From positions 7,626,001 to 7,690,000 of the forward strand of contig NZ_CP109435.1 of the NCBI RefSeq assembly GCF_036227125.1: a stretch of 64,000 nucleotides of DNA, read 5' to 3'. A program made the position numbers and the translations under genes. Each line of letters starts with the position of its first letter. Positions within the stretch are counted from its first letter, which is position 1. The DNA comes from Streptomyces sp. NBC_01485 (GTDB taxonomy: Bacteria; Actinomycetota; Actinomycetes; Streptomycetales; Streptomycetaceae). Below the pieces are notes generated by a model. It did not search any database. It had not been told where the DNA came from and was given only the letters and a program-made list of their open reading frames with translations. Shown piece by piece: positions 40,873 to 59,713 of this stretch.

Positions 40873-42345
40873 TCACTCCGCGTCGGCGACGACCGAGCCC
40901 ACCCGCTCGGCCAGGCCGGGGTCACGGCGGACCAGGAGGGTCGCGTAGCCGACGGCCGCGACCAGGGTGGCCAGGGCCGCGTACGGGAACCAGTTGTAGG
41001 GGGCGGGCTGGCCGGGCTTGGCGAGGTAGTAGAGCGGAACCAGGATGGCGAGGGTACCGATCGCGGGCAGCACGAGGTGCCGGACGGTCCGGAACTCCTG
41101 TGGGCGGTATCTGCGGTAGTACAGCGGCAGGGCGATGTTGGACGCGAGGTAGACCAGCAGGATCAGGATGGTGCCCAGGCTCGAGGACTCCGTGAAGAAG
41201 ACCACGGGGTTCATCGAACCGTCGTCGGACCCGAGCAGATGGCCCAGCCCCCAGCCTCCGATGATCAGCAGCGCGGTGGCGGCGAAGGTGACGATCGCGT
41301 TGTTCGGCGTACGACGGGTGGGGTGGACGTAGCCGAAGAAGGACGGCAGCAGCCCTTCGCGGCCGGCGTTGAACACCAGGCGGGCCTGGGAGTTGATGCC
41401 CGCGATGAGTACGCCCAGGGTCGAGGTCAGGCCGCCGACGTAGGCGAGGAGCGCCAGCGCGCCGAGCGTGTGGTGGGCGACGTCGATGAAGGGGATCCGG
41501 GAGGCGCCGAGCCGTTCCACGTCGTAGCCGAAACCGGTCACCGTGGCGTAGGAGAAGAGGATGTAGCTCACCGTCATGATCGCGATGGAGGAGAACACGG
41601 CGCGGCCGACGTTGCGCCGTGGGTTCTCCGTCTCCTCCGCGAGTGCCGCCGAGTTCTCCCAGCCGATGAACAGGTACACCGCCAGCGGGAAGCCGGCCGC
41701 CAGCCCCTTGAGGCCGTGGGTGAGGTGGCTGGGCAGGAACGGGGTGGCGGAGAGGTCGCCGCGGTGCTCGACGATCGTCGCGACCGACACCACGACGAGC
41801 ACCAGCATCTCCACGCCGAAGAAGTAGCCGGCCCACTTGGTGGAGACCACGATGCCGCGCAGCATCAGCACCACCGACAGCCCGGTCAGCAGCAGCGTCC
41901 AGATGATCCACGGCAGGTCCACGCCCGTGTAGTGGTCCAGGGTGATCTGCACGAAGCCGCCCGAGATCGCGATCACCGAGGCCATCGCGATGATGTAGCC
42001 CAGTCCGGCCAGCAGCGCCGTGGTCACCGCGCTGACCGGCCCGAACGTCCGGCCGACGAAGGTGGTGAAGCTGCCCGCCGAGGGGTGCGCCCGGGAGAAC
42101 TCGGCCAGCGTGTTGCCGAGCAGCGCGACCGCCACCCCTGCCGCCACGATGGTCAGCGGGGACGCCACCCCCGCGGTGGTGGCCAGGAAGGCGAAGCCGA
42201 AGAAGAAACTCATCGCCGGGCCGACGTTGGCCATCGTGGCGGCGGCGATGTCCGCCATGCCGAGGACGCCGCCGCGCAGCCGCTGGGGCGCGCCGACGGG
42301 GGGGCCCGACGTCGACGACGGGCCGACAGCTCCGGGGTCCGGCAT
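40873..42345 (-). CDS. APC-family amino acid permease
   Basis: The 490-residue transporter has about 12 TM helices. The APC opening G-V-L-G-M-A-D-I-A-A-A-T-M-A-N-V-G-P-A-M (about 27-46) is followed by E-F-S-R-A-H-P-S-A-G-S-F-T-T-F-V near 85 and F-I-G-W-E-N-S-A-A-L-A-E-E-T near 225. ATG 42345 has AAGGAG eight bases upstream. It is downstream of the GntR-type regulator on the same strand (55 bp), so the regulator probably controls both this permease and the divergent one. The substrate is not evident. Confidence 0.88.
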   Translation of the reverse strand: MPDPGAVGPSSTSGPPVGAPQRLRGGVLGMADIAAATMANVGPAMSFFFGFAFLATTAGVASPLTIVAAGVAVALLGNTLAEFSRAHPSAGSFTTFVGRTFGPVSAVTTALLAGLGYIIAMASVIAISGGFVQITLDHYTGVDLPWIIWTLLLTGLSVVLMLRGIVVSTKWAGYFFGVEMLVLVVVSVATIVEHRGDLSATPFLPSHLTHGLKGLAAGFPLAVYLFIGWENSAALAEETENPRRNVGRAVFSSIAIMTVSYILFSYATVTGFGYDVERLGASRIPFIDVAHHTLGALALLAYVGGLTSTLGVLIAGINSQARLVFNAGREGLLPSFFGYVHPTRRTPNNAIVTFAATALLIIGGWGLGHLLGSDDGSMNPVVFFTESSSLGTILILLVYLASNIALPLYYRRYRPQEFRTVRHLVLPAIGTLAILVPLYYLAKPGQPAPYNWFPYAALATLVAAVGYATLLVRRDPGLAERVGSVVADAE

Positions 42346-42400
42346 GGCGACAACTCCTTCTGCGGGGTGGCGACACGGGGAAGGGAGGGAAAAGAGGAGA

Positions 42401-43135
42401 TCAGTGCAGGCCGGCGTGCCGGTGTGCCTTCACCGCGTGTACCGCCGGGTCCATCGCGCCGCAGGTGAGCTCGTCGAGCAGGTCGGCGTGGCAGCGGTTG
42501 CGGGCTCGTACGACCGCGGGGTCCGGCGAGGGCCCCAGCAGGCACTGCCGGCCGAGCAGGTCGGCCGCGAACTCACGGATCCCGGCGCCGCCGAGGGCCT
42601 CCGCGAGGCCGAGGTGGAAGCGGGTCTCCAGCTCGAGCAGCCGGGCCGGATCCTCGACCAGGTCCATCTCCTCGACCAGCGCCCGCAGTCCGTTGAGCCG
42701 CCCGTCCGGGACCTCGCCGGTGTTGTGCGCCACGAGACCGCATTCGAGCAGCAGATGGAAGGATTCCAACGCGGCCGCCTCGTCGGCGTCGTGCAGTACG
42801 GCGACGACCGTGTCCCAGTCGGCGGCGACGAAGGTCCCGCCCGCCCGGCCCCGACGGCGGTCGAGCAGGCCGTCCTGGCACATGGCCTCCAGCGCGCGGC
42901 GCACGGTGATCTCACTGATCCCCAGTTCCTCGGCGAGGACGCCCGCGTCCGGCAGCCGGTCTCCCGGCGCCACGGACTTCAGACGCACCCGCAGGGCGAT
43001 CCTGGACCGGACGAGCTCCGCTCCCGTGGGCCCCCGGCCTGCCAGGACGCGGGTGTCCCATGCCCCGCCGACCGGCGCGGACCGCGCGGGCACCGGCTGG
43101 TTGTAGGGACCGAACTTGCCCGCTGCATTCACCAC
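42401..43135 (-). CDS. GntR-family (FadR-type) transcriptional regulator
   Basis: The 244-residue regulator has a winged HTH at about 40-105: R-S-R-I-A-L-R-V-R...G-D-R-L-P-D-A-G-V-L-A-E-E-L-G-I-S-E-I-T-V-R-R-A-L. A helical FCD-like effector domain (about 125-235) follows, with F-H-L-L-L-E-C-G-L-V, E-T-R-F-H-L-G-L-A-E and N-R-C-H-A-D-L-L-D; the conserved histidines and Asp could bind metal. Two adjacent GTG codons can start it. It is flanked by permease genes on both sides, with a perfect palindrome in the divergent region. Confidence 0.85.
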   Translation of the reverse strand: MVNAAGKFGPYNQPVPARSAPVGGAWDTRVLAGRGPTGAELVRSRIALRVRLKSVAPGDRLPDAGVLAEELGISEITVRRALEAMCQDGLLDRRRGRAGGTFVAADWDTVVAVLHDADEAAALESFHLLLECGLVAHNTGEVPDGRLNGLRALVEEMDLVEDPARLLELETRFHLGLAEALGGAGIREFAADLLGRQCLLGPSPDPAVVRARNRCHADLLDELTCGAMDPAVHAVKAHRHAGLH

Positions 43136-43333
43136 GAAGCCACCCTAACGGCCTGTCGAGCGCGGGCCGGGCCCACGGCGACGGCATCCGCACGGAGGGT
43201 TCTCGCGACCGTGCCGCGGTGTGATGCATGGGGCTCCCCAGGGGACCGGAACACGGGGACGACACGGCGGCAGCCACGGGGGACGGAAGACGCCGTGCGC
43301 ACTGCACGAAAAATAGAGCAGGGTGAACAGTTA

Positions 43334-43346
43334 AACAAGTCTTGTT
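43334..43346. promoter_or_regulatory. palindrome, putative GntR operator
   Basis: AACAAG-t-CTTGTT is a perfect palindrome in the divergent region between the GntR gene and the GabP-like permease, 53 bp before the permease start. It sits in the most AT-rich part of that region, so it is a natural candidate binding site for the neighbouring regulator. Confidence 0.5.
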
Positions 43347-43398
43347 CTTTTAGATCGCACTGAACTAATTTCCAGGGGCCCTGGTCCGCACTCCCTCC

Positions 43399-44850
43399 AT
43401 GGATGTCGAGATGACCACAACCGTCCCCAAAAGCCCTCCCGCGGAGCCCGAGTCCGGCCTGCAGGCCGGACTGAAGAGCCGCCATCTGTCGATGATCGCG
43501 ATCGGCGGTGTCATCGGCGCCGGCCTGTTCGTCGGCTCCGGCTCCGGCATCGCCGCCGCCGGTCCCGGCATCCTGATCTCGTACGCCCTCGTCGGCGTCC
43601 TGGTCGTCCTCGTGATGCGCATGCTCGGTGAGATGGCCGCGGCCAACCCCACCTCCGGCTCGTTCTCCGCCTACGCCGACCGCGCGCTGGGCCGGTGGGC
43701 CGGCTTCACCATCGGCTGGCTGTACTGGTTCTTCTGGGTCGTGGTGCTCGCAGTCGAGGCGACCGCCGGGGCCAAGATCCTGGCCGGCTGGATGCCGGCG
43801 GTCCCGCAGTGGGGCTGGGCCCTGATCGTCATGCTCGTCCTCACCGCCACCAACCTGGCCTCGGTGAGCTCCTACGGTGAGTTCGAGTTCTGGTTCGCCG
43901 GCATCAAGGTCGTCGCGATCGCCGCGTTCATCGTGGTCGGCGGCCTTGCCATCTTCGGCCTGCTGCCCGGCTCGGACCACCCGGCGAGCGGCTTCTCCAA
44001 CCTCACGGCGCACGGCGGCTTCCTGCCGAACGGACCCGGAGCGATCCTCACCGGCGTCCTGATGGTGGTCTTCTCCTTCATGGGCAGCGAGATCGTCACG
44101 CTGGCGGCGGGTGAGACCGCGGACCCGCAGGCCGCCGTCACCAAGGCCACCAACAGCGTCATCTGGCGGATCGCCGTGTTCTACCTGGGCTCGATCCTGA
44201 TCGTGGTCTCGCTGTTGCGCTGGGACGACCCGGCCATCCTCAAGGACGGCTCGTACGTCGCCGCGCTCAGCTCCGTCGGCATCCCGCACGCCGGCCAGAT
44301 CATGAACACCATCGTGCTGACCTCGGTGCTCTCCTGCCTCAACTCCGGCCTGTACACCGCCTCCCGCATGGCCTTCTCTCTCGGCCGCCGCAGCGACGCC
44401 CCGGCCGCGTTCGGTCGGACGACGGACCGTGGCGTCCCGCGCTCGGCCATCCTCGCCTCGGTCGTCTTCGGCTTCGTCGCGGTCGCCTTCAACTACCTGT
44501 GGCCGGACACCGTCTTCCAGTTCCTGCTCAACGCCTCCGGAGCGATCGCCCTGTTCGTCTGGCTGGTGATCTGCTTCTCCCAGCTGCGGATGCGCAAGAT
44601 CATCGAGCGGGAGTCGCCGGAGAAGCTGGTCGTCCGGATGTGGCTCTACCCCTACCTGACCTGGGCCACCATCGCCCTCATCACCTTCGTCCTGGGATAC
44701 ATGCTCACCGACACGGCTGACGGCGGAGGCCGCGACCAGGTCGTCCTCTCCACCCTGCTGGCCGTGGCCGTGGTGGTCTTCGCCGTGGTCCGCCAGCGCC
44801 GGGCCGCCCGGAACGGGACACACACGCCAGACCGCGTCACGGCGTCCTAG
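43399..44850 (+). CDS. GabP/AnsP-type amino acid permease
   Basis: The 483-residue AAT-family transporter has 12 TM helices. The N-terminal L-K-S-R-H-L-S-M-I-A-I-G-G-V-I-G-A-G-L-F-V block is followed by G-P-G-I-L-I-S-Y and V-V-F-S-F-M-G-S-E-I-V-T-L-A-A-G-E. The order and motifs match GABA/asparagine permeases. An in-frame ATG four codons in is an alternative start. It is divergent from the GntR regulator and followed by a strong hairpin. It probably imports a small amino acid such as GABA with protons. Confidence 0.9.
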   Translation: MDVEMTTTVPKSPPAEPESGLQAGLKSRHLSMIAIGGVIGAGLFVGSGSGIAAAGPGILISYALVGVLVVLVMRMLGEMAAANPTSGSFSAYADRALGRWAGFTIGWLYWFFWVVVLAVEATAGAKILAGWMPAVPQWGWALIVMLVLTATNLASVSSYGEFEFWFAGIKVVAIAAFIVVGGLAIFGLLPGSDHPASGFSNLTAHGGFLPNGPGAILTGVLMVVFSFMGSEIVTLAAGETADPQAAVTKATNSVIWRIAVFYLGSILIVVSLLRWDDPAILKDGSYVAALSSVGIPHAGQIMNTIVLTSVLSCLNSGLYTASRMAFSLGRRSDAPAAFGRTTDRGVPRSAILASVVFGFVAVAFNYLWPDTVFQFLLNASGAIALFVWLVICFSQLRMRKIIERESPEKLVVRMWLYPYLTWATIALITFVLGYMLTDTADGGGRDQVVLSTLLAVAVVVFAVVRQRRAARNGTHTPDRVTAS

Positions 44851-44877
44851 GAGGAAGGAGCACCTTCCGCCCCGCCC

Positions 44878-44921
44878 CCGCGGTGGTGGCATGAGCCTCC
44901 CCGGCCATGGCACCACCGCGG
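44878..44921. terminator. hairpin terminator of the GabP-like gene
   Basis: CCGCGGTGGTG pairs with CACCACCGCGG, with a further CATG/CATG pairing inside one mismatch and a loop of about 12 nt. It starts 28 bp after the permease stop. The following 44922-45148 holds no recognisable feature. Confidence 0.8.
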
Positions 44922-45148
44922 CGTCGCTTCCGCGGAGTGCGAAACCGGCAGGACGTCCTCGATCTCGTCGTGGAGAGGGGATGGAAGTGCCCGTACTCCG
45001 CAGGAGAGGCAGTGCTTCCGGTGCCTGGGGCGGAGCGGCTGTGCTGTCCCGACCGGCGGATGCTGAGCGGCCTGACCTGCGTGTCTGGCTGACTGCCGAT
45101 GTGCCGGCGGTCTTCCGTTTCTCTTCAGTGTCCGGCACACCCGCCCCC

Positions 45149-46084
45149 TCAGTTCGCAGCCTGGGACCGGGCGGGCAGGTCGCGCGAAGAGCCGTCGGCC
45201 AGGATGCGCTCCAGGGATCGTCGGCCCATCCGACTCATGACCGGGTTGCTGTCGACGTAATACCAGACCAACCCCATCGCCTGAACGAAAGCCCACGCCT
45301 TGCCCCGCTCCCGTTGAAGGCCGCCGCAACCCAGGTGATCGAGGAGCACCTCGCGCGGCCCGGCCTCCAGCAGATGCCACGCGCTCACGAGATCCAGCGA
45401 CGGGTCCGCCGGCCCGAAGCCGCCGACGTCGAGAATCCCGGCAAGACGGCCGTCGGACACGAGCACGTTGCCAGGAATCAGGTCACTGTGGGCCATGACG
45501 TCCTCAGTCGCGCCTCGCGGGAGATCGCGCAAAGTCGCCCAGATACGGCGGAGCCGAGGAACGTCCAGGAGCTGCCCACTGTGCCTGAAACAGGTCTCCA
45601 TCCAGGCGTCATGGGTTCGCAGGTCGCCTCCTCGACCTGTGCCGGCGAACGTGCGGCCACGCGTGTCGATCGCGCGTAGGTCGCCGATGAGATCGGCCAG
45701 GTCGCGGGCGAACGCCACCGATTCGCCCGGGTCCTCGTCGTCGGCCACGGTCCCCGGCAGCCACGTCTGCACCGACCACGGAAGCGGGTAGCCCGCCCCG
45801 GATTCACCGAGTGCGACCAGCTCGGGCGTGGGGAAACGCGTGCGCCCTGCCAGCTCGCGAGCCGCTTCCGCTTCGGCCTTCAGCCGGCGCCGTGTCGGCT
45901 CGACGTCTGCGGGTTCAAGAGGGAAGCGAGCTGCGAACCCATCGCCGATGCGGAAGACGGCGTTGACCGTACCCTGTGCAGCGATGCTCCTGACGGGCAG
46001 GCTCTGCCACTCAGGAAACTGCTGATCCACCAACATGCGCACCGTCTGAGGCGACACCGTCAGCTGGTTGGCGTGCATCTGCAT
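45149..46084 (-). CDS. APH-family phosphotransferase
   Basis: The 311-residue aminoglycoside-phosphotransferase-fold kinase has the N-lobe G-T-V-N-A-V-F-R-I-G-D-G-F-A-A-R-F-P near 40. The Brenner motif H-S-D-L-I-P-G-N-V-L-V lies near 195-206, and D-V-G-G-F-G supplies the metal-binding Asp near 217. Family members phosphorylate antibiotics, sugars or other small metabolites; this sequence does not reveal which, and no resistance claim is justified. ATG 46084. It is divergent from kdpD with a 192-bp intergenic region that contains the 11-bp direct repeats. Confidence 0.85.
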   Translation of the reverse strand: MQMHANQLTVSPQTVRMLVDQQFPEWQSLPVRSIAAQGTVNAVFRIGDGFAARFPLEPADVEPTRRRLKAEAEAARELAGRTRFPTPELVALGESGAGYPLPWSVQTWLPGTVADDEDPGESVAFARDLADLIGDLRAIDTRGRTFAGTGRGGDLRTHDAWMETCFRHSGQLLDVPRLRRIWATLRDLPRGATEDVMAHSDLIPGNVLVSDGRLAGILDVGGFGPADPSLDLVSAWHLLEAGPREVLLDHLGCGGLQRERGKAWAFVQAMGLVWYYVDSNPVMSRMGRRSLERILADGSSRDLPARSQAAN

Positions 46085-46133
46085 GGCGGAAGCTTCCGCG
46101 TCACCCTAGTGACTCCTGTCCGTCCCCAGGGAT

Positions 46134-46149
46134 GTCAAGACGGCGTCAA
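46134..46149 (+). promoter_or_regulatory. putative KdpE box upstream of kdpD
   Basis: GTCAAG-ACGGC-GTCAAG is a direct repeat with an exact 11-bp period (46134 and 46145), the spacing bound by OmpR-family regulators such as KdpE. Matching repeats precede the K+ permease and kdpF genes. GTCAC-ccta-GTGAC at 46100-46113 is an additional inverted repeat. Confidence 0.55.
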
Positions 46150-46253
46150 GGTCCCCGTGATCGGTGCCAAGGAAGCGCTAACAACCGCCCCGCCCGGTCG
46201 CCGGAAGCGTTTCGGTGGAGAGAAGCAACCCGCCTCCCGAGGGAGTTGAGCCA

Positions 46254-46280
46254 GTGAGCGGAGCGCGTCGGCGGCGATGA
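46254..46280 (+). other. eight-codon leader ORF overlapping the kdpD start
   Basis: GTG AGC GGA GCG CGT CGG CGG CGA TGA overlaps the kdpD ATG (cgATGAgt). GAGGGAG lies about 10 bases before the GTG, whereas kdpD itself has no good ribosome site. Translation of this mini-ORF may bring ribosomes to kdpD. Confidence 0.35.
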
Positions 46281-48844
46281 GTGGTGACGTACGGCCCGGA
46301 CGGCTGAAGGTCTACCTGGGGGCGGCCCCGGGGGTGGGCAAGACCTACCGGATGCTCGACGAGGGGCGGCGGCGGGCTGCCCGCGGCGCGGATGTCGTGG
46401 TCGGCCTCGCCGAGTGCCACGGCCGGCCGCGCACCGAGGCCATGCTGGACGGCCTGGAGGTCGTCCCCCGTGCCCGCTGTGTCCACCGTGGCGGCGAGTT
46501 CGAGGAGATGGACCTCACGGCGGTGCTGGCCCGCCGCCCGCAGGTGGCGATCGTCGACGAGTTCGCCCACAGCAACGTCCCCGGTGACGGCCGCAACGCC
46601 AAGCGCTGGCAGGACATCGAGGCGCTGCTCGCCGCCGGCGTCGACGTCGTGACGGCGCTGAACATCCAGCATCTGGCCTCCCTCAACGACGTGGTGGAGA
46701 AGATCACCGGGGTGCCGCAGCACGAGACGGTGCCCGACGACGTCGTCCGGCGGGCCCATCAGGTCGAGCTGGTGGACATGCCCCCGGAGGGCCTGCGGCG
46801 CCGTATGGCCCACGGCAACGTCTACGCGCCCGAGAAGGTCGACGCGGCCCTCGCGAACTACTTCCGGCCGGGCAATCTGACCGCGCTGCGGCAACTGGCC
46901 CTGCTGTGGGTCGCGGACCGGGTCGACGCGGCGCTCCAGACCTACCGCGCCGAGCACTCCATCGGCGGCGTGTGGGAGACCCGGGAGCGGGTGGTCGTCG
47001 CGCTGACGGGCGGGCCGGAGGGGGACACGCTCGTCCGGCGGGCCGCCCGCATCGCCGCCCGGTCGGCCGGGGGCGATCTGCTGGCCGTGCACGTGGCCCG
47101 CAGCGACGGCCTGGCCGCCGGTGTCTCGCACGCCTCGCTGGCCCGGCAGCGGCGGCTGGTGGAGGACCTCGGGGGCAGCTACCACTCCGTCGTCGGGGAC
47201 GGCATCGCCACCGCACTGGTGGAGTTCGCCCGTGCCGAGAACGCCACCCAGCTGGTGCTGGGCACCAGCCGCCGGGGCCGCCTGGAGCGGTTCCTGACCG
47301 GACCCGGCACGGGGGAGACCGTGACCGAGCTGTCCGGGGACATCGACGTCCACCGGGTCACCCACGAGCGCGCCGGGCGCGGCTCCCTGCTGCCGTCCCG
47401 CCGCCGTACCCTGTCCACCGCCCGACTGATCGCGGGGCCGGTGGCGGGGCTGGTGCTGCCGGTGCTGCTGACGGCCGTCCTCGCCCAGGTGCGGGGCACG
47501 GTGAACCTGACGAGCGAGGCGCTGCTGTTCCTGCTCGCGGTGGTGGGGGTGGCCTGCATAGGAGGGGTCGCTTCGGCGCTGATCGCGTCGGTGACGGCGT
47601 CCCTGCTGCTGAACTACTGGTTCATCCCGCCCATCGGCGCGTTCACACTCGAGGATCCCAACGCGCTTCTCGCGCTGGGGGTGTTCGCGGTGGTGGCCGT
47701 CACGGTGGCCGCCGTCGTCGACCGCTCGCTGCGGCTGTCCCGCCGCTCGGCCCGGGCCACCGCGGAGGCCGAGACCATGTCGTCGCTGGCCGGCAGCATC
47801 GTGCGCGGTGGCGCGACCATCCCGGCCCTGCTGGAACGGACCCGCGAGACCTTCGGCATGGACTCGGCGGAACTCGTCGACGAACCTCCCGATGCCGAAC
47901 CGCCCGATGCCGAACCGCCCAACTCCCAACCTCCCGATGCCGAACCGCCCGACGCCGAGGGCGCCACCGCCGTGCCGGCCGGTCCCGGCGCGTATCTGCT
48001 GCTGCGGGGGCGGACGCTGTCGTCCTCCGAGCGGCGCGTGCTCGCCGCGTTCGCCGCGCACGTGGGGTCGGCCGTCGAGCGGGCCCGGCTGGCCGAGGCG
48101 GCGGCCGAGGTGGAGCCCGTGAAGGCCGCCGACCGGATGCGTACGGCGCTGCTGCGGGCCGTCGGGCACGACCTGCGCACCCCGCTCGCCGCGGGCTGGG
48201 CGGCCGTCACCTCGCTGCGCAGCCGGGACGTGGAGTTCACCCCGGAGGACCGCGACGAACTCCTCGCCACCGCCGACGAGTCCATGGCCAAGCTCAGCCG
48301 CCTGGTCGAGAACCTCCTCGACCTCAGCCGCCTGGAGGCCGGCGTCCTCCCGCTGAACCTGCGGGCCACGACCCTGGAGGAGGTGCTCCCGATGGCGCTC
48401 GCGGACGTGCCGGCGGCCGAGGCGCGGGACATGGAGCGGATCCCGGCGGTGCTGGCCGATGCGCCGCTGCTGGAGCGCGTCGTCGCCAACCTGGTCGGCA
48501 ACGCGGCCCGGCACACGCCGCCCGGGCAGAAGGTGATGGTCACCGCCAGCGCCCTGGCGGGACGCGTGGAACTGCGGGTCGTCGACCGGGGGCCCGGCCT
48601 TCCCACCGACGGCCGGGAGCGGCTCTTCGAGCCGTTCCAGCGGCTCGGGGACACCGACAACACCACCGGTCTCGGCTTGGGCCTCGCCCTCGCCCGGGGC
48701 CTGACCGAGGCGATGAACGGGACCCTCACTCCCGAGGACACCCCGGGCGGCGGCCTGACGATGGTCGTGTCGCTGCCCTGCGCGGAACAGGCCGGCACGA
48801 CGCGGCCGGCGCAGAACCCGCACCCCATGGTGCGCGGGGCGTAG
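46277..48844 (+). CDS. kdpD: osmosensitive K+ channel sensor histidine kinase KdpD
   Basis: The 855-residue protein is a full-length KdpD. The N-terminal KdpD domain has Walker-type G-A-A-P-G-V-G-K-T-Y-R-M-L (15-27) and V-D-E-F-A-H-S-N-V-P-G near 93. A USP-like domain (about 235-360) and four TM helices (about 380-485) follow. A Pro-Pro-Asp-Ala-Glu repeat linker near 535-555 lies in the GAF-like region. The HisKA domain has H631 in A-V-G-H-D-L-R-T-P-L-A, and HATPase motifs G-N-A-A-R-H and G-L-G-L-G-L-A come last. It senses low K+ or salt stress and phosphorylates KdpE. No kdpE follows it, and a second, damaged kdpD lies at the kdpFABC locus. Confidence 0.95.
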   Translation: MSGDVRPGRLKVYLGAAPGVGKTYRMLDEGRRRAARGADVVVGLAECHGRPRTEAMLDGLEVVPRARCVHRGGEFEEMDLTAVLARRPQVAIVDEFAHSNVPGDGRNAKRWQDIEALLAAGVDVVTALNIQHLASLNDVVEKITGVPQHETVPDDVVRRAHQVELVDMPPEGLRRRMAHGNVYAPEKVDAALANYFRPGNLTALRQLALLWVADRVDAALQTYRAEHSIGGVWETRERVVVALTGGPEGDTLVRRAARIAARSAGGDLLAVHVARSDGLAAGVSHASLARQRRLVEDLGGSYHSVVGDGIATALVEFARAENATQLVLGTSRRGRLERFLTGPGTGETVTELSGDIDVHRVTHERAGRGSLLPSRRRTLSTARLIAGPVAGLVLPVLLTAVLAQVRGTVNLTSEALLFLLAVVGVACIGGVASALIASVTASLLLNYWFIPPIGAFTLEDPNALLALGVFAVVAVTVAAVVDRSLRLSRRSARATAEAETMSSLAGSIVRGGATIPALLERTRETFGMDSAELVDEPPDAEPPDAEPPNSQPPDAEPPDAEGATAVPAGPGAYLLLRGRTLSSSERRVLAAFAAHVGSAVERARLAEAAAEVEPVKAADRMRTALLRAVGHDLRTPLAAGWAAVTSLRSRDVEFTPEDRDELLATADESMAKLSRLVENLLDLSRLEAGVLPLNLRATTLEEVLPMALADVPAAEARDMERIPAVLADAPLLERVVANLVGNAARHTPPGQKVMVTASALAGRVELRVVDRGPGLPTDGRERLFEPFQRLGDTDNTTGLGLGLALARGLTEAMNGTLTPEDTPGGGLTMVVSLPCAEQAGTTRPAQNPHPMVRGA

Positions 48845-48860
48845 AAGGAGCCTGATAAGC

Positions 48861-48890
48861 ACCGGAACCGGAACCGGAACCGGAACCGGA
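48861..48890. repeat. (ACCGGA)5 tandem repeat
   Basis: Five exact copies of the hexamer ACCGGA lie immediately after kdpD in non-coding DNA. It is a potential slippage or phase-variable tract. Confidence 0.85.
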
Positions 48891-49060
48891 AGCGGCAGAT
48901 GGCGGATGCCGCGCCGTACGGGCGGCGCCGGCGCAGCGCACCGTGTCCCGCACGTCGCGCGCCAAGCGGAGGTCGTGCGCCGCGTCAGCGGGTCCGCGCG
49001 CGCCGTTGCGGGGGGCCATGCGGTGACCGTAGGGATCCGGAAGGCCGGACCGCCTCCGTT

Positions 49061-49118
49061 TTGACGGGACGCTGACGGCGCTGTCACCTGCGTCACATCC
49101 CCGTCAAGGTCCCGTCAA
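49061..49118 (+). promoter_or_regulatory. putative KdpE boxes upstream of the K+ permease
   Basis: GTCAA occurs at 49103 and 49114 (11-bp period), preceded by GTCAC at 49092, also 11 bp away. On the other strand, TTGAC at 49061 and CTGAC at 49072 are again 11 bp apart. This is the richest of the three repeat clusters in the K+ region. Confidence 0.55.
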
Positions 49119-49244
49119 AGTCGGCCGCTTCGGCGCGAAGAAGCCGCAAAGGACGGTCGGCCTTGGCCGGAAACGGACACACCCTGAGTGCACCGCGCAC
49201 ACCTCAGCCCTCGTGCACGGACCTGGAAGAAGGAGCACGCGCCG

Positions 49245-51086
49245 ATGTCCGTCCTGACCCTGGAGCCGGGCGCGACCCCCGCCGACGAAGAGCCGCCGGA
49301 TACCGGCGAACGCCACCGGCTCACCGCTGTCACCGGCCTGGCCGCCCTCTCGCTCGACGCCATGGCGTCGGTGGCCTACGGCCCCGAGGCGATCGTCCTC
49401 GTCCTCGCCGCGGCCGGTGCCCACGGCCTCGGTTTCACCCTGCCGGTGACGCTGGCCATCGCGGGTCTGCTGGCGGTGCTGGTCGCCTCGTACCGGCAGG
49501 TGATCGCCGCGTTCCCGGACGGCGGCGGGTCGTACGCCGTGGCGAAGACGCATCTGGGCGCGCGCACCAGCCTGGTCGCGGCCGCGTCCCTGGTCCTGGA
49601 CTACGTGCTCAATGTCGCGGTCGCCGTCACCGCCGGTGTCGCCGCGCTGACCTCGGCCTTCCCGGAGCTGTACGGCGACCGCCTGTGGGTGTGCCTGGCG
49701 GTGCTCGTGCTGATCACGGCGGTGAACCTGCGGGGCATCGTGGAGTCGGCGAGGGTGTTCATCGTGCCGACCGTGGTGTTCGTCGGCTCGATCCTCGTCC
49801 TGATCGTCGTCGGGCTGTTCCGGTCGGCCCCGGTCAGCACGGCCACCGCGGACGGGCATGCGTCGGTCCTGGCCGACAACGCGACCACGGTGGGCGCGCT
49901 GCTGTTGCTGAAAGCTTTCGCCTCTGGTTGCGCGGCCCTCACCGGAGTCGAGGCCATCGCCAACGCCGTCCCCTCCTTCCGGGTGCCGCGCGTGAAGCGG
50001 GCCCAGCACGCCGAGGTCGCCCTCGGCGCCGTGCTCGGTGTGATGCTGATCGGTCTGTCGGTGCTGATCTCCCGCTTCCACCTCCAGCCGGTCGAGGGCG
50101 TGACCGTCCTCGCCCAGCTCGCGGACGCCTCACTGGGGCACAACTGGGCTTTCTACGTCATCCAGTTCGCCACGATGATCCTGCTGGCCCTGTCCGCGAA
50201 CACGTCCTTCGGCGGGCTGCCGGTGCTGCTGAAGCTGCTGGCCCGCGACAACTACCTGCCGCACGTGTTCGCGCTGAAGGCCGACCGCCAGGTGCACCGG
50301 CACGGAGTGCTGGCCCTGGCCGTGGTCTCGGCGGCGCTGCTGGTGTTCTCCGGCGGTGACACCAACACCCTCGTGCCCCTGTTCGCGATCGGCGTCTTCG
50401 TCGGCTTCACCATCGCGCAGGTGGGCATGGTCCGGCACTGGCGGCTCGAACGCGGGACGGGGTGGCGGGGCAAGGCCCTGCTCAACGGCTTCGGCGCACT
50501 CCTGACCGGTGTGGCGACCATCGTCGTCACCGCGAGCAAGTTCGAGGAGGGCGCCTGGCTGGTCGTGGTCGCGCTCCCGCTGCTCGCGCTGGCCTTCGTC
50601 GCCGTGCACCGCGCCTACGCCCGTATCGGGGAGAGTCTGGGCCTGGGGCGGATCCCTGAGCCCCCGCACCGCGAACGCTCGCTGGTGATCGTCCCCGTGT
50701 CCTCCCTCTCCCGCCTGACGTCCGAGGCGCTGACCGCGGCGGCCTCCCTGGGCGACGAGGTGCGCGCGGTCACCGTCTGCTACCCCGACCCCGAGGACCG
50801 GGTCGCCCTCCACGCGCTGGAGCGCGCCTGGGCGGAGTGGGACCCCGGGGTGCCGCTGGTCCGGCTGACCTGCGAGAGCCGCAGCCTGGGCCGTCCCATC
50901 GCCGCGTACGTCCGTGAGGTCACGGCGGCGGAGCCGGCCACCCAGGTCACCGTCCTGATCCCGGAGACCGAGCCGGAGCGGCTGTGGCAGCGGCTGCTGC
51001 AGAACCAGCGGGGCGCGGTCGTCGCCCACGCCGTGCGGCGGGAGACGGACGCGGTCATCTGCCGGCTGCGCTTCCGGCTGCTGTGA
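49245..51086 (+). CDS. KimA-like APC-family potassium permease
   Basis: The 613-residue protein has 12 TM helices (about 30-455) and a roughly 150-residue cytosolic C-terminal domain, an arrangement resembling KimA/YdaO-type K+:H+ symporters. Key segments are L-S-L-D-A-M-A-S-V-A-Y-G-P-E-A-I near 36, Y-R-Q-V-I-A-A-F-P-D-G-G-G-S-Y near 87 and L-T-G-V-E-A-I-A-N-A-V-P-S-F-R near 235. Potassium specificity is inferred from the family and from its kdp neighbours and shared upstream repeats. Start ATG 49245 has AGAAGGAGC upstream; the 19-codon extension is unsupported. Confidence 0.82.
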   Translation: MSVLTLEPGATPADEEPPDTGERHRLTAVTGLAALSLDAMASVAYGPEAIVLVLAAAGAHGLGFTLPVTLAIAGLLAVLVASYRQVIAAFPDGGGSYAVAKTHLGARTSLVAAASLVLDYVLNVAVAVTAGVAALTSAFPELYGDRLWVCLAVLVLITAVNLRGIVESARVFIVPTVVFVGSILVLIVVGLFRSAPVSTATADGHASVLADNATTVGALLLLKAFASGCAALTGVEAIANAVPSFRVPRVKRAQHAEVALGAVLGVMLIGLSVLISRFHLQPVEGVTVLAQLADASLGHNWAFYVIQFATMILLALSANTSFGGLPVLLKLLARDNYLPHVFALKADRQVHRHGVLALAVVSAALLVFSGGDTNTLVPLFAIGVFVGFTIAQVGMVRHWRLERGTGWRGKALLNGFGALLTGVATIVVTASKFEEGAWLVVVALPLLALAFVAVHRAYARIGESLGLGRIPEPPHRERSLVIVPVSSLSRLTSEALTAAASLGDEVRAVTVCYPDPEDRVALHALERAWAEWDPGVPLVRLTCESRSLGRPIAAYVREVTAAEPATQVTVLIPETEPERLWQRLLQNQRGAVVAHAVRRETDAVICRLRFRLL

Positions 51087-51103
51087 CCCTCGCCTCCAGC
51101 GGC

Positions 51104-51151
51104 GTAAGAGTCCCGTCAAAGGTGTGGGGGCCGCCGTAAGAGACGCGTCAA
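51104..51151 (+). promoter_or_regulatory. two putative KdpE boxes upstream of the kdp operon
   Basis: GTAAGAGTCCC-GTCAA (51104/51115) and GTAAGAGACGC-GTCAA (51136/51147) are near-identical 11-bp-spaced direct repeats whose starts lie 32 bp apart (three helical turns). A -10-like TCTAAT follows at 51185-51190, placing the nearer box just upstream of where a -35 would be, as expected for activation. Confidence 0.6.
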
Positions 51152-51232
51152 CGACCGCGGAATCCGGCCAAAAAGGCGGTTTCCTCTAATCGTCCGTTCC
51201 ACCCGAACCTCTTCTAGTTCTAGGAGTTCGCG

Positions 51233-51316
51233 ATGGCCGATCTGGCCTTCGTCGTCACCACGATCGCGGTGTTCGCGCTGGTGGCTCTCGTCGCCAAAGG
51301 GGTGACGAAGCTGTGA
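51233..51316 (+). CDS. 27-aa hydrophobic small protein preceding kdpF
   Basis: ATG after TAGGAG encodes 27 residues, mainly one TM helix (L-A-F-V-V-T-T-I-A-V-F-A-L-V-A-L-V-A) ending K-G-V-T-K-L. Its TGA overlaps the GTG of kdpF (GTGA), so it is the first cistron of the kdp operon. Its size and topology resemble KdpF, suggesting a second KdpF-like stabilising peptide or a paralogue (inference). It is too short for routine gene callers. Confidence 0.65.
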   Translation: MADLAFVVTTIAVFALVALVAKGVTKL

Positions 51317-51402
51317 CCGCCGAGAACGTCGTCGGTCTGGTCGTGGCCGTCGCCCTGCTGGGTTATCTCGTCCTCGCCCTGATCTTCCCGGAGAGGTTCT
51401 GA
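51313..51402 (+). CDS. kdpF: K+-transporting ATPase subunit KdpF
   Basis: The 29-residue single-TM peptide [13 protein letters not shown], then [10 protein letters not shown], ends I-F-P-E-R-F. The Y-L-x-x-A-L-x-x-P-E-x-F ending is the KdpF signature. KdpF stabilises the KdpABC complex. GTG start overlaps the preceding stop, and kdpA begins 5 bp after its own stop. The spacing shows a single translationally linked operon. Confidence 0.88.
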
Positions 51403-51406
51403 GATC

Positions 51407-53125
51407 GTGATGGGTCCCGTACTCGGCGGCGTGCTTCAGTTGCTCGCACTCATAGCGGCGCTGGCGCTCGCCTACGTCCCCCTCGGCAACTACATGGCCA
51501 GGGTCTACTCCTCCGACCGGCACTGGCGCGTCGAGAAGTGGATCTACAAGGGCATCGGCGCCAACCCGAACACGGAGATGCGCTGGCCCGCGTATCTGCG
51601 CGGGGTGCTCGCCTTCTCGGCCGTGAGCGTCCTCTTCCTCTATCTGCTCCAGCGGCTCCAGGGGCATCTGCCCGGCTCGCTCGGCTTCAAGGCCATCGAC
51701 CCGGACCAGGCGTTCAACACGGCCACGTCGTTCGTGACGAACACCAACTGGCAGTCGTACTACGGCGAGCAGGCCATGGGCCATGTCGTGCAGACGGCAG
51801 GCCTCGCGGTGCAGAACTTCGTGTCGGCGGCCGTCGGCATCGCCGTCGCGGTGGCGCTGGTGCGGGGGTTCGCGCTCCCCCACTCTCGGCTTCGCTCGAG
51901 CGGGGGGACCCCCATGCGCACCGGTGAGCTGGGCAACTTCTGGTCGGACCTGGTGCGCGGGACCATCCGTATCCTGCTGCCGCTGTCCGTCGTCGCCGCG
52001 GTCGTCCTGGTCGCCTGCGGCGCCATCCAGAACTTCTCCGGGATCCACGAGGTCGGGCAATTCCTGAATGGGCACAGCATGGGCGGCCACCAGCAGTGGA
52101 ACGGCGGCGCGGTCGCCTCGCAGGAGGCCATCAAGGAGGTCGGCACCAACGGCGGCGGTTACTTCAACGCCAACTCCGCCCACCCCTTCGAGAATCCGAC
52201 GCCGTTCACGAACCTCTTCGAGATCTTCCTGCTGCTGGTCATCCCGTTCGCGCTGACCCGCACCTTCGGGATCATGGTCGGCTCGGTCAGGCAGGGGTAC
52301 GCGATCCTCGCGACCATGGGCACGATCTGGGTGGGCTTCATCGCGCTGATGATGTGGACCGAGTTCGCGCACCACGGCCCGGCGTTCGAGATCGCGGGCG
52401 GGGCGATGGAGGGCAAGGAGACCCGTATCGGGGTCGGCGCCTCGTCGATCTTCGCGGTGTCGACGACGCTCACCTCGACCGGCGCGGTGAACTCCTTCCA
52501 CTCCTCGTTCACCGGGCTCGGCGGCGGTATCACCATGCTGGGCATGCAGTTGGGGGAGATCGCGCCCGGCGGTACCGGTTCGGGTCTGTACGGCATGCTG
52601 GTGATGGCGATCATCGCGGTGTTCATCGCCGGTCTGATGGTGGGGCGTACGCCCGAGTACCTGGGCAAGAAGATCGGGACCCGTGAGATCAAGTTCGCGG
52701 CGTGCTACATCCTGATCACCCCGGCGCTGGTGCTGGTCTTCACAGCCGCGGCGATGGCCCTGCCGACCCCGGGCAACTCGATGACCAACAGTGGGGCGCA
52801 CGGGTTCTCCGAGATCCTGTACGCCTACAGCTCGGCGGCGAACAACAACGGTTCGGCGTTCGCCGGGCTGAACGCGGACACGCAGTGGTTCAACAGCACG
52901 CTGGGGCTGGCCATGGTGCTGGGCCGGTTCCTGCCGATGGTGTTCGTGCTGGCGCTGGCGGGTTCGCTGGCGGAGCAGAAGCCGGTGCCGGCGACCGCGG
53001 GCACCCTGCGCACCGAGAAGCCCCTGTTCACGGGGCTGCTGGTGGGCGCGATCCTGATCATCACCGGTCTGACCTACTTCCCGGCGCTGGCGCTGGGTCC
53101 GCTGGCCGAGGGGCTGGCGTCATGA
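51407..53125 (+). CDS. kdpA: K+-transporting ATPase subunit KdpA
   Basis: The 572-residue channel-like subunit has ten TM helices and four filter-like loops, including T-N-T-N-W-Q-S-Y near 110, [12 protein letters not shown] near 247 and T-S-T-G-A-V-N-S near 361. It selects K+ and works with the KdpB pump. Between G-F-A and R-T-G-E-L-G-N-F-W (about 157-170) there are some 14 extra residues ([14 protein letters not shown]) encoded by a palindromic repeat. The frame is kept, so function may survive. GTG 51407 is favoured by ribosome-site spacing over ATG 51410. Confidence 0.95.
51874..51913. repeat. palindromic repeat inserted in frame in kdpA
   Basis: The segment reads GCTCCCCCACTC...GAGCGGGGGGACCCCC, a GC hairpin with TCGGCTTCGCTC at its tip. 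It is of the short interspersed type I recall from many streptomycete genomes, usually between genes. Here it adds about 14 codons without breaking the frame. Recognition as a dispersed repeat is from memory and needs a search. Confidence 0.6.
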
Positions 53126-55245
53126 CCACCGACACGCAGAAGCAAGAGGACTCCATGTCCACAGCCACCCCGACCCGGGCACCCCACCAGGACGTCCCGA
53201 CCGGTCACAAGGAAAGCCGTGTCGGCGCGGGCCTCTTCGACCCCAAGCAGTTGCTGAAGTCGCTGCCGGACGCCTGCCGCAAGCTCGATCCGCGGGTCAT
53301 GGTCAAGTCGCCCGTGATGTTCGTGGTGTGGATCGGCTCCGTGCTGACCACCGTGTTCTCCTTCAAGGACCCGGGCGACTGGTTCGGCTGGACGATCAGC
53401 GCCTGGCTGTGGCTGACGGTGATCTTCGCGAACCTCGCGGAGGCGGTCGCCGAGGGCCGAGGCAAGGCGCAGGCGGACACTCTGCGCAAGGCCAAGACCG
53501 ACACGGTCGCCCGGCGGCTCGTGGGGGAGTCCGAGGAGGAGGTGCCCGGCACCGAACTGCGCATCGGCGACCTGGTCGTCTGCGAGGCCGGTGACATCAT
53601 CCCCGGCGACGGTGACGTCGTCGAGGGCGTGGCCTCCGTCGACGAGTCGGCGATCACCGGTGAGTCGGCGCCCGTCATCCGGGAGTCCGGCGGCGACCGA
53701 AGCGCGGTCACCGGCGGCACGAAGGTCCTGTCCGACCGGATCGTCATCAAGATCACGACGAAGCCGGGCGAGACCTTCATCGACCGGATGATCAACCTGG
53801 TCGAGGGCGCTGCCCGGCAGAAGACGCCGAACGAGATCGCCCTCAACATCCTGCTCGCCTCGCTGACCATCGTGTTCCTGCTGGCGGTGGCGACCCTGCC
53901 GCCGTTCGCGGACTACGCGGGCACCCACCTCACGATGGTCGTGCTGGTGGCCCTCCTGGTCTGCCTCATCCCGACGACGATCGGCGCGCTCCTCTCCGCG
54001 ATCGGCATCGCGGGCATGGACCGGCTGGTGCAGCGGAATGTCTTGGCCATGTCCGGGCGGGCCGTCGAGGCTGCGGGCGATGTGTCGACCCTGCTGCTGG
54101 ACAAGACCGGCACCATCACGCTCGGCAACCGGCAGGCGTCGGAGTTCGTGCCGGTGACCGGGACGACCGAGGCAGAGGTGGCCGACTCGGCCCAGCTCTC
54201 CTCGCTGGCCGACGAGACCCCCGAGGGCCGTTCCATCGTCGTCCTGGCGAAGGAGAAGTACGGGCTGCGCGAGCGCCACCAGGGCGAGCTGTCCGGCGCC
54301 GAGTGGATCGCCTTCACCGCCCAGACCCGCATGTCGGGCGTGGACGTCGACGGGCGCAGGATCCGCAAGGGCGCGGCCGGCTCGGTCATCACCTGGGTCA
54401 AGGAGCAGGGCGGCACCGTCTCCAAGGACGCCGGCACGCTCGCCAACCGCATCTCCGAGGCCGGCGGCACCCCGCTGCTCGTCGCCGTCGAGGACGACAA
54501 GGGCGCCCGTGTACTGGGTGTCATCCACCTCAAGGACGTCGTCAAGGAGGGCATGCGCGAGCGGTTCGACGAGCTGCGGCGCATGGGCATCAAGACCGTC
54601 ATGATCACGGGCGACAACCCGCTGACGGCGAAGGCGATCGCCGAGGAGGCCGGTGTCGACGACTTCCTCGCCGAGGCCACTCCCGAGGACAAGATGGCCC
54701 TCATCAAGCGGGAGCAGGCGGGCGGCAAGCTCGTCGCGATGACCGGCGACGGCACCAACGACGCACCTGCGCTCGCCCAGGCCGACGTGGGTGTGGCCAT
54801 GAACACGGGTACGTCGGCCGCGAAGGAGGCCGGCAACATGGTCGACCTCGACTCCAACCCGACGAAGCTCATCGAGATCGTCGAGATCGGCAAGCAACTC
54901 CTCATCACCCGGGGCGCGTTGACGACGTTCTCGATCGCCAACGACGTCGCGAAGTACTTCGCGATCATCCCGGCGCTGTTCGCGGCCGTCTACCCGGGCC
55001 TGGACAAGCTCAACGTCATGGGCCTGGCCTCGCCGGACTCCGCGATCCTGTCCGCCGTCATCTTCAACGCGCTGATCATCATCGCGCTGGTGCCGCTCTC
55101 CCTCAAGGGCGTCCAGTACCGGCCGGTCAGCGCGGACAGGATGCTGCGGCGCAACCTCACGATCTACGGCATCGGCGGCCTGATCGCCCCCTTCATCGGG
55201 ATCAAGCTCATCGACCTGCTCATCTCCCTCATCCCCGGGCTGTAA
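53122..55245 (+). CDS. kdpB: K+-transporting P-type ATPase subunit KdpB
   Basis: The 707-residue P-type ATPase has seven TM helices. It shows the actuator motif [11 protein letters not shown], phosphorylation site D327 in [17 protein letters not shown] in the N domain and [12 protein letters not shown] in the P domain. It hydrolyses ATP to drive K+ through KdpA. The ATG overlaps the kdpA stop (ATGA). An ATG twelve codons in could also start it; the longer N-terminus is soluble and poorly conserved. Confidence 0.96.
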
Positions 55246-55269
55246 TTTCTTGAAAGCGTGCTGAAGGTC

Positions 55270-55938
55270 ATGAACAACTCCGTAACCAACACCGTCCGGT
55301 TGCTCTGGGCGGGCCTGCGCGCCCTCCTCGTACTGACCCTGGTGACCGGCGTCATCTACCCGCTGGTGGTGACCGGTATCGCCCAGGGACTGTTCAGCGA
55401 CCAGGCCAACGGCTCCGAGATCAAGTCGGACGGCAAGGTCGTCGGTTCCTCCCTCATCGGGCAGTCGTACAACCTGCCGCTGAAGACGGGTCAGGAGACT
55501 CCGGAGCCCGACCTGAAGTGGTTCCAGGGGCGTCCGCAGAACGGTCTCGGCAGCAACAGCGTCAACACGCAGTACAAGTTGATCCTGTCCGGCGCGACCA
55601 ACCGGTCCGGTGACAACAAGGACCTGATCGACTGGGTGACCGCCGCGAAGAAGGCCGTCGTCAAGGACAACTCGGTGAACGGCTACACGGTCAAGCCCTC
55701 CGACGTGCCCGCCGACGCGGTCACGTCCTCCGGCTCCGGCCTGGACCCGGACATCTCCCCGCAGTACGCGGACATCCAGGTCCACCGGATCGCCGAGAAG
55801 AACGGCCTGCCCGTCGCCCAGGTGCAGAAACTGGTCGACGCCCACACCGACGGCCGCACCCTCGGCTTCATCGGCGAACCCCGCGTCAACGTCCTCCAAC
55901 TCAACATCGCGCTCAAGGAACTCGCGGCGAAGAGCTGA
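55270..55938 (+). CDS. kdpC: K+-transporting ATPase subunit KdpC
   Basis: The 222-residue KdpC has one N-terminal TM (L-L-V-L-T-L-V-T-G-V-I-Y-P-L-V-V-T-G) and a periplasm-equivalent domain. The family motifs G-S-x-L-I-G-Q, W-F-Q-G-R-P, S-G-S-G-L-D-P-D-I-S-P and V-N-V-L-Q-L-N are all present. It assists assembly and K+ binding by KdpAB. ATG 55270 is chosen for its GAAGGTC ribosome site; a GTG four codons earlier is possible. The chimeric kdpE-kdpD pseudogene follows 119 bp later. Confidence 0.95.
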   Translation: MNNSVTNTVRLLWAGLRALLVLTLVTGVIYPLVVTGIAQGLFSDQANGSEIKSDGKVVGSSLIGQSYNLPLKTGQETPEPDLKWFQGRPQNGLGSNSVNTQYKLILSGATNRSGDNKDLIDWVTAAKKAVVKDNSVNGYTVKPSDVPADAVTSSGSGLDPDISPQYADIQVHRIAEKNGLPVAQVQKLVDAHTDGRTLGFIGEPRVNVLQLNIALKELAAKS

Positions 55939-56057
55939 TGGAGTTACACGTCCCACAGAGGAGTCGGCGGTCCGGGAGGGAGAGCCCCGTTCCGCCGACT
56001 CCCGCCGTCATGAAGCCGGTACGGCCCGACGACGTACGACAGGAAAGGCGCACGCCC

Positions 56058-58131: not shown

Positions 58132-58283
58132 CGGCAGGCGGACCGGCGGCCAGGCGCTCGTGCTCGCCGTTCCCGTGGTCGGCGCGTACCACCTGCCGAT
58201 GGCCTCCGGCCACAACCTCGTCGGCCGCCCACCCGTGGCCGCCGTACGAGACGGCCTCGCCCGCCTTCCGGCCCGCCGGGTCC

Positions 58284-59264
58284 TCACCTTGTGTGCCGGG
58301 CGCTCAGGGAGTTGAGAAGGGCGGCTCCGCGTTCGGCGTCGTCCACGCTCACGGCGAACTCCCGGCCCTTGGAGGAGCGGACGACCAGGCACTCGCCGCC
58401 GCGCAGCATCACGGTGGTGCCCAGCCCGCTCAGCCGGTACCCCCAGCCGCCGACGTGGCCGGGCGTACGACTCTCCACGCGCGCCGACTCGACGTCCCCG
58501 GCGGCCCAGTGCCGCGCGGGCCACCCGAAGGGCCCGAACGAGACGTCCAAACCCCGCTCGTTGACCCGTGCCTGCACGGAGGAACACCCGAGAACCAGAA
58601 GAGAGGCGAAGACGAAGGGCGCGGCGGCCAGCAGGAACGAAAGGCCCGCCAGACCCGAGAGCGCCGCCACGCCGACCCCGACCGCGACCAGCCCGCTCAG
58701 CGCGGCAAGCGCCTGGAGCCACGAGTTCGACGTACGAGCCAGCCATACGACCCGCTGCCCGACGGGAATGTCCAGGGCCGGGCCCTCTGCCGCGGGCCGG
58801 GACAGCGCAGGCGCCCGGCGCGCGGCCAGCAGCCCGACCGCCCCCACAGCGGCCGCGACGGCGACCGTCCCCACGACCCAACTGGTCACCGATTCGGCGT
58901 CGCGCCAGTCCGCACGATCCAGATTCGCCCGCACGATGGACGCCTGCCCACCCAGCAGCATCACCCCACCGAACCCGAGGCCCGCGACCGCCCACCCCGG
59001 CACCACGCCACCGGCCCCCGTCCGGCGCAGCGTCAGCATGACGACGACTGCCGGCACCCCCCAGATCAGCGCGGGGAACAGTGCGGCGGCCCAGAACGGC
59101 ATGGAGCCGTCGGGCCTGCCCGAGCCGGCGCCCCAGTGGGTCGCCAGCCGGTCCGGGAGCCGGCCGCTCGCGGCCAACGGCAGCCCCACCAACAGGGCCA
59201 GGACGCCGCCGCCCCAGCCGACGGCGCCCCGCGCCGCCCCGCTCCTACGCGCCCGGTCGGTCAC
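58284..59264 (-). CDS. DUF1648-domain membrane protein
   Basis: The 326-residue protein has about six TM helices at roughly 17-35, 55-75, 90-110, 128-147, 182-200 and 203-222, plus a C-terminal soluble domain. The early loop L-P-D-R-L-A-T-H-W-G-A-G-S-G-R-P-D-G is the DUF1648 signature. Such proteins often sit with YtrA-type GntR repressors and may relate to cell-envelope stress, but the function is unknown. The GTG start overlaps the GntR stop (GTGA), so the repressor and this gene form one operon. Confidence 0.85.
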   Translation of the reverse strand: MTDRARRSGAARGAVGWGGGVLALLVGLPLAASGRLPDRLATHWGAGSGRPDGSMPFWAAALFPALIWGVPAVVVMLTLRRTGAGGVVPGWAVAGLGFGGVMLLGGQASIVRANLDRADWRDAESVTSWVVGTVAVAAAVGAVGLLAARRAPALSRPAAEGPALDIPVGQRVVWLARTSNSWLQALAALSGLVAVGVGVAALSGLAGLSFLLAAAPFVFASLLVLGCSSVQARVNERGLDVSFGPFGWPARHWAAGDVESARVESRTPGHVGGWGYRLSGLGTTVMLRGGECLVVRSSKGREFAVSVDDAERGAALLNSLSARHTR

Positions 59265-59608: not shown

Positions 59609-59630
59609 GGTGCTAATGAAGCTAGCACCA
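59608..59630. promoter_or_regulatory. putative YtrA/GntR operator
   Basis: TGGTGCTA and TAGCACCA are perfect 8-bp inverted arms with a 7-nt spacer, positioned across the start and leader of the repressor gene. The location implies the repressor blocks its own transcription or initiation. Confidence 0.65.
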
Positions 59631-59713
59631 ACGACTTGAAATGGGGCGAGGTTCTGAGAAGCTAACGGCAGGGGCAGCGGCAGGGGCAGGGGCAGGGGCC
59701 GGTTCGCGTGTGC

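Follow-up and report, generated by a model that had tools for sequence, protein, structure and literature searches.

The KdpE operators closest to the sites analyzed here are those of Escherichia coli and Mycobacterium smegmatis, which we compare as far as the accessible text of each report goes. The E. coli site consists of two direct-repeat half-sites of 6 bp with 5 bp between them, 11 bp apart, and holds two KdpE DNA-binding domains; residues R193, R200, and T215 are needed for DNA binding (PMC3264566). The minimal M. smegmatis site, CCGTAAAGAAACCATCAAGGCC, was mapped by EMSA and DNase I, whereas the kdpD promoter of that species was not bound by its KdpE (PMC5401905). In Bacillus subtilis, kimA is under a cyclic di-AMP (c-di-AMP) riboswitch, according to the available portion of the source (PMC11302148). 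For Streptomyces, the accessible text of one paper lists SCO5871/SCO5872 as KdpDE in a table (PMC9739842). According to the accessible part of a 2023 review, KdpDE had yet to be analyzed in a Streptomyces model, and unpublished data cited there indicate that S. venezuelae can dispense with it both for development and when grown in 0.5 M NaCl or KCl (PMC10117811). In the accessible part of the literature, we recognized no report that places KdpE at a kimA promoter or describes a KdpE site in Streptomyces.

Here we describe repeats in a 64,000-nucleotide stretch of the Streptomyces sp. NBC_01485 genome (the window) that precede the sensor kinase gene kdpD1, a gene for a KimA-like permease, and the kdp operon. 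Like the E. coli site, they are direct repeats with half-sites 11 bp apart, whereas the E. coli half-sites are AT rich (TTTATA and TTTACA) and form one repeat pair (PMC3264566, accessible text). With the M. smegmatis operator they share the form GTAA-N7-RTCAA, the 11-bp period, the position upstream of kdpFABC, and an actinobacterial KdpE; that operator differs in being one 22-bp site, and the accessible text of the report neither mentions a KimA gene nor uses the wording "direct repeat" (PMC5401905). On the strength of sequence comparisons, we predict that the KimA-like gene likely belongs to the KdpE regulon.

A K+ island with a broken kdpE-kdpD2 pair

In order, the island contains kdpD1, the KimA-like gene, kdpFABC (51233 to 55938), and the wreck of kdpE and kdpD2 (56058 to 58131) (Table 1). 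The only Protein Data Bank match of the window permease was KimA (6s3k; E value, 5.5e-120), over residues 22 to 605 of 614; by this full-length similarity the permease is a member of the KimA family, and K+ transport is predicted.

A deletion joined the linked kdpE to kdpD2, and a frameshift follows the fusion. Their 21-base junction, searched with one mismatch allowed, occurred in 1 of 392 genus genomes, namely, this genome only, so the fusion is either private to this genome or an assembly error; as the assembly stands, loss of the linked kdpE is apparently private to this strain. Among 80 relatives with the permease, kdpA lies downstream in 57, and in 49 of these 57 an unbroken KdpE match follows kdpC. 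The other eight either reach a contig end (L051, L067, and L087) or have a KdpE that is broken, short, or missing (L066, L072, L077, L080, and L086). The arrangement with kdpD1 upstream and kdpD2 after kdpE was found in many relatives, not all.

Table 1. Coordinates of genes and repeats of the K+ island in the window
Feature	Coordinates	Strand	Remarks
Direct repeat GTCAAGACGGCGTCAA	46134-46149	+	143 bp ahead of kdpD1; GTMAR-N6-GTMAR match
Weak second kdpD1 direct repeat GCCAAGGAAGC-GCTAACA	46166-46183	+	At +32/+43
kdpD1, unbroken sensor kinase gene	46277-48844	+	KdpD, Usp, DUF4118, HisKA, HATPase; no adjoining kdpE
Inverted direct repeat GTCAGCGTCCCGTCAA	49061-49076	-	Upstream of kimA; absent from the preliminary description
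Extra half-site GTCAC	49092-49107	+	11 bp ahead of main kimA repeat
Main kimA direct repeat GTCAAGGTCCCGTCAA	49103-49118	+	142 bp ahead of start codon
Weak second kimA direct repeat GCGAAGAAGCC-GCAAAG	49135-49151	+	At +32/+43
KimA-like K+ symporter gene	49245-51086	+	PDB 6s3k match; Pfam AA_permease_2
First kdp direct repeat GTAAGAGTCCCGTCAA	51104-51119	+	129 bp ahead of kdpF (51233)
Second kdp direct repeat GTAAGAGACGCGTCAA	51136-51151	+	Exactly 32 bp past first; 97 bp ahead of kdpF
kdpF, 27 aa	51233-51316	+	
kdpA	51410-53125	+	Pfam KdpA; in-frame insertion at ~51880-51920
kdpB	53122-55245	+	Start set at its first MTTDTQ
kdpC	55270-55938	+	Start set at MNNSV
kdpE remnant (~31 codons) fused in frame to mid-kdpD2	56058-56690	+	Pseudogene
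kdpD2 C-terminal half	56782-58131	+	Another frame

The kdpA insertion comprises about 12 residues in frame and looks palindromic by eye; none of the 52 relatives read has this stretch lengthened, and the core of the stretch occurred in 6 of 347 loci. Separately, a KdpB-like gene approximately 72% identical to KdpB was seen near kdpD1 or kimA in two relatives (L048:1335-3494 and L078:15347-17521, both on the minus strand), where no adjoining kdpA was found; minus-strand KdpB matches of this kind also occur in other relatives.

An 11-bp direct repeat upstream of kdpD1, kimA, and kdpFABC

The preliminary description of this DNA reported GT(C/A)A repeats at 46134/46145, 49103/49114, 51104/51115, and 51136/51147 and read them as a common code with an 11-bp period ahead of kdpD (here kdpD1), the KimA-like gene, and the kdp operon. 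All four repeats are present as described. Searching both strands of the window with GTMAR-N6-GTMAR returned five matches, these four on the plus strand and one at 49061 on the minus strand, and all five are upstream of kdpD1, the KimA-like gene, or kdpFABC. In 100 dinucleotide shuffles of the window, the mean was 0.54 matches and the largest number was 2, so that none reached 5. The looser pattern GTMA-N7-GTMA gave nine window matches, three of which (3225, 17730, and 51302) are outside the upstream regions of kdpD1, the KimA-like gene, and kdpFABC. Among GTMA pairs in the window with periods of 7 to 23, period 11 was the commonest (9 pairs; next, 5). A simple sigma-70 scan of window positions 44000 to 58500 found no site.

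Genome-wide, GTMAR-N6-GTMAR occurred at 101 places versus 58 for the reversed control, and a consensus with up to two mismatches occurred at 171 places versus 114. In the 9.17-Mb genome, a tighter pattern, RTMARRGNNNNGTCAA, matched five places (versus three for the reversed control), one at kimA, two at kdp, one at a distal kdpD, and one unrelated; like the relaxed core kdpD form used below, it was shaped after the sites had been seen, and such counts are descriptive. The kdpD1 site is not matched by this pattern. Partly against the earlier proposal, the loose GT(C/A)A motif thus stood at many unrelated loci, whereas the tighter form was specific. More independent tests were provided by cross-trained position weight matrices (PWMs), the M. 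smegmatis site, and kdpA regions of other families.

The fifth RTMARRGNNNNGTCAA place (6020506), AT rich, intergenic, and beside a lipoprotein-like gene by eye, was judged to be a chance match. At eight loci opened for near-matches elsewhere in the genome, no K+ gene was seen by eye in the translations. An 11-bp unit, GTCAGGGATCC, also forms a tandem array in locus L012 around position 1501 (G000:C1:1081342-1081368); the genes near it do not look K+ related by eye.

Conservation in Streptomyces relatives

Conservation was counted as GTMA-N7-GTMA within 400 bp upstream on either strand, window loci included. The motif was present at 36 of 40 kdpD1 loci, 63 of 81 kimA loci, and 58 of 58 kdpA loci, the last figure being raised by a match within conserved coding sequence at the kdpF end; with this match set aside, the strict site stood at 54 of 58, with a GTATG variant in the remaining 4. 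Other periods from 7 to 16 gave at most 8 in any class. The strict motif was thus missing from 18 of the 81 kimA regions. At kimA, linkage to kdp made a difference: within 350 bp on either strand, the strict motif was found in 51 of 58 kdp-linked kimA regions versus 11 of 23 others, and a relaxed form on the gene's strand ([GA]TCARN6GTCAR) was found in 53 of 58 versus 5 of 23. On the minus strand, GTMA-N7-GTMA occurred in 22 of the 58 kdp-linked regions.

PWMs were trained on one promoter class and tested on another, with the 99th percentile of shuffles as the cut-off. The kdpF matrix placed 65 of 81 kimA and 28 of 36 core kdpD regions above it, the core kdpD matrix 57 of 58 kdpF and 69 of 81 kimA regions, the kimA matrix 40 of 40 kdpD1, 52 of 58 kdpF, and 33 of 36 core kdpD regions, and the kdpD1 matrix 52 of 81 kimA regions. 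The weak pairs were kdpF on kdpD1 (12/40), core kdpD on kdpD1 (18/40), kdpD1 on kdpF (8/58), and kdpD1 on core kdpD (14/36), which marks kdpD1 as a dialect. Taken together, the cross-class results point to one code in two dialects, GTMAGRG at kdp and core kdpD and GTCAAG at kimA and kdpD1. A second control with 405 random 350-bp locus pieces, which gave 99th percentiles of 15.7 to 22.7 bits, was uninformative because the pieces could overlap the sites.

Operator architecture

When PWMs built from other promoter classes were used, the top-scoring second direct repeat was at +32 for 54 of 58 kdpF loci and for 36 of 36 kdpD1 loci scored. At kimA, the best offset was 32 in 23 of 53 loci and 31 in 16 of 53; among 33 core kdpD loci, 32 was outside the five commonest offsets. 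Column information agrees with a second repeat about 32 bp on. Another family (f30) has two repeats 32 bp apart in 5 of 5 kdpA upstream regions, one of them by a looser pattern. The island operators are paired, each a direct repeat with a second approximately 32 bp on, a point missing from the preliminary description, and half-sites at 0, 11, 32, and 43 would share one helix face.

Comparison with mapped KdpE sites and with other families

The M. smegmatis KdpE site reads GTAAAGAAACC-ATCAAGG, an 11-bp repeat of the Streptomyces code (site taken from the accessible text of PMC5401905). With the pooled Streptomyces PWM it scored 16.4 bits, and 0 of 20,000 shuffles scored as high; the corresponding numbers were 2 of 20,000 for each of the kimA and kdpD1 matrices and 173 of 20,000 for the core kdpD matrix, the weakest. 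The E. coli site, scored without a null, reached 9.4 bits with the pooled PWM and less with single-class PWMs.

Among 197 genomes searched, 78 non-genus genomes had KdpA, and 56 of these were read. RTMA-N7-RTCAA, that is, period 11 on the gene's strand, occurred in 17 of the 56 kdpA upstream regions, and 39 were without the motif; periods 7 to 10 and 12 to 16 on that strand gave 0 to 2 regions, and on the opposite strand period 11 was not special (2 regions). Two of nine loci of family f6 read GTAAAGAAACCGTCAA, which is nearly the M. smegmatis site.

A distal, intact kdpDE pair

An intact KdpE with Response_reg and Trans_reg_C domains is encoded at G000:C1:7092283-7092957, 580 kb from the island, beside an unbroken kdpD. 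It is 76% identical to the accessory KdpE of a relative (L032), the next OmpR-type match being 43% identical, and no other close, intact KdpE turned up in the genome. Judged by gene order, this pair is presumably the counterpart of SCO5871/SCO5872.

The repeat GTCAGGGTTGTGTCAA lies 112 bp ahead of the distal kdpD start. Across 36 core kdpD loci (35 of the genus and 1 of another family in the order; G017, with no KdpE match, and G012, with no usable kdpD start, were left out), GTMA-N7-GTMA was found at 18 and the relaxed form [GA]TCAGRN5GTMAA at 33. At an E value of 1e-65, KdpE was detected in 36 of 37 genus genomes, this one included (none in G017), and in 56 of 61 of all genomes searched. A strict site (L214) is kept in G013, a genome without a KdpA match at an E value of 1e-100.

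By our own mapping from E. coli KdpE, R193, R200, and T215 are conserved in the distal KdpE. DNA-binding domains were obtained from 12 of 13 loci (all except G060). Their comparison showed that distal and accessory Streptomyces KdpE have the same recognition stretch, NYLRVYMAQLRRKLE, from which the single f6 KdpE read (G054) differs only slightly. Three genomes belong to a family in which kimA adjoins kdpE; there, the stretch is GYLRFHMARLRRKLE, and the kimA repeat is GCAAG-N6-GCAAA, which was present at 6 of 6 loci of that genus, whereas four more distant kimA loci showed none. These data are at most suggestive of covariation between the recognition stretch and the kimA repeat.

The distal region also contains a core permease 38% identical to KimA, which was rejected as a regulon member: of 35 loci, 3 had a match in the 450 bp upstream, each at a position of its own. 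At L143:13801 (G000:C1:7095801), GTCAAAAAGATGTCAA lies with a trkA-like gene on one side and a KimA paralogue on the other; it is not conserved in relatives. In the other genus of the order in which kimA adjoins kdpE, the repeat, GCAAGCNNNATGCAAA, of 11-bp period, lies approximately 105 bp ahead of kimA in 6 of 6 loci (L181 to L186).

KdpE as the likely reader of the repeats

Four lines of evidence make KdpE the likely reader: the conservation of the repeats, the site ahead of the distal kdpDE, the kdpA regions of other families, and the mapped M. smegmatis site. They also support the earlier suggestion that the KimA-like permease is part of the KdpE regulon. That suggestion had named the strain's KdpE as reader. 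KdpE itself is supported, whereas the linked KdpE is a remnant fused to kdpD2, so that the distal KdpE is likely to read the predicted sites. We consider it very probable that the repeats are KdpE operators, with dimers on the half-sites, low-K+ activation of kdpFABC, the KimA-like gene, and kdpD1, and the distal KdpE as the reader.

Each GTMAR-like half-site would take one KdpE monomer, two half-sites 11 bp apart would seat a head-to-tail dimer, and at the three island promoters the second repeat, some 32 bp further downstream and facing the same side of the helix, would seat another dimer. When K+ is low, KdpE would be phosphorylated by a KdpD sensor and, bound upstream of the core promoter, would activate kdpFABC, the KimA-like symporter gene, and kdpD1 together. 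The site ahead of kdpDE would provide feedback, which may not be general, as the KdpE of M. smegmatis did not bind its kdpD promoter (PMC5401905, accessible text). With the linked kdpE destroyed, the distal core KdpE would read the island. We infer activation, rather than repression, from KdpE elsewhere; binding in this strain, K+ as the signal, occupancy by a dimer or a tetramer, and the feeding of the distal KdpE by KdpD1 are presumed. On balance, we lean toward a broader model in which Streptomyces KdpE would govern Kdp, KimA, and the orphan KdpD1 through a 0/11/32/43 operator holding two dimers, this strain's island having been handed to the distal core KdpDE in a recent rewiring.

The sites of MtrA, PhoP, and AfsQ1 are 11-bp direct repeats too. 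An OmpR-family regulator of this sort could read the sites in place of KdpE, and the genome, with 71 matches to KdpE at an E value of 1e-3, encodes many KdpE relatives; moreover, the sites are kept although the linked kdpE is broken. Such a reader is nonetheless improbable, given that the same sequence stands ahead of kdpDE itself at 33 of 36 loci, that 4 of the 5 tight-motif places in the genome are at K+ or kdpDE loci, and that the sites match the mapped M. smegmatis KdpE site (PMC5401905, accessible text).

Control might instead be split, with KdpE acting at kdp and the distal kdpD (GTMAGRG) and a second partner of the orphan KdpD1 acting at kimA and kdpD1 (GTCAAG). We regard this as quite unlikely: the two dialects seen in cross-scoring and the lack of a response regulator gene adjoining kdpD1 in the window would fit, but cross-scoring also connects the kimA sites to those of kdpF and core kdpD, all three island promoters have a second repeat some 32 bp further on, and the M. 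smegmatis site scores with both the kimA and the kdpD1 matrices (2 of 20,000 shuffles each). A c-di-AMP (ydaO-type) riboswitch in place of KdpE, the known control of B. subtilis kimA (PMC11302148, accessible text), is very unlikely at Streptomyces kimA, where, unlike in Bacillus, Rfam gave no match at the gathering score, either in window positions 42000 to 60000 or in nine kimA-type loci. Control by c-di-AMP may still operate by another route, such as the Usp domain of KdpD. That the repeats are chance occurrences or basal promoter elements without a regulator is scarcely credible, for although the loose motif's 101 genome places are modestly above the control, 0 of 100 shuffles reach five matches and conservation is concentrated at one period.

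Implications

The predicted control of the KimA-like gene by KdpE is a supported and well-grounded extension of the known regulon, in which expression of the Kdp pump and of a KimA-type symporter is probably switched on jointly. With these repeats, Streptomyces has a conserved and concretely defined candidate for a KdpE operator, and they predict that KimA, a c-di-AMP target in Bacillus, would be coinduced with the Kdp pump by KdpE. Because this strain alone seems to have lost its linked kdpE, it would allow a direct test of cross-regulation by the distal system.
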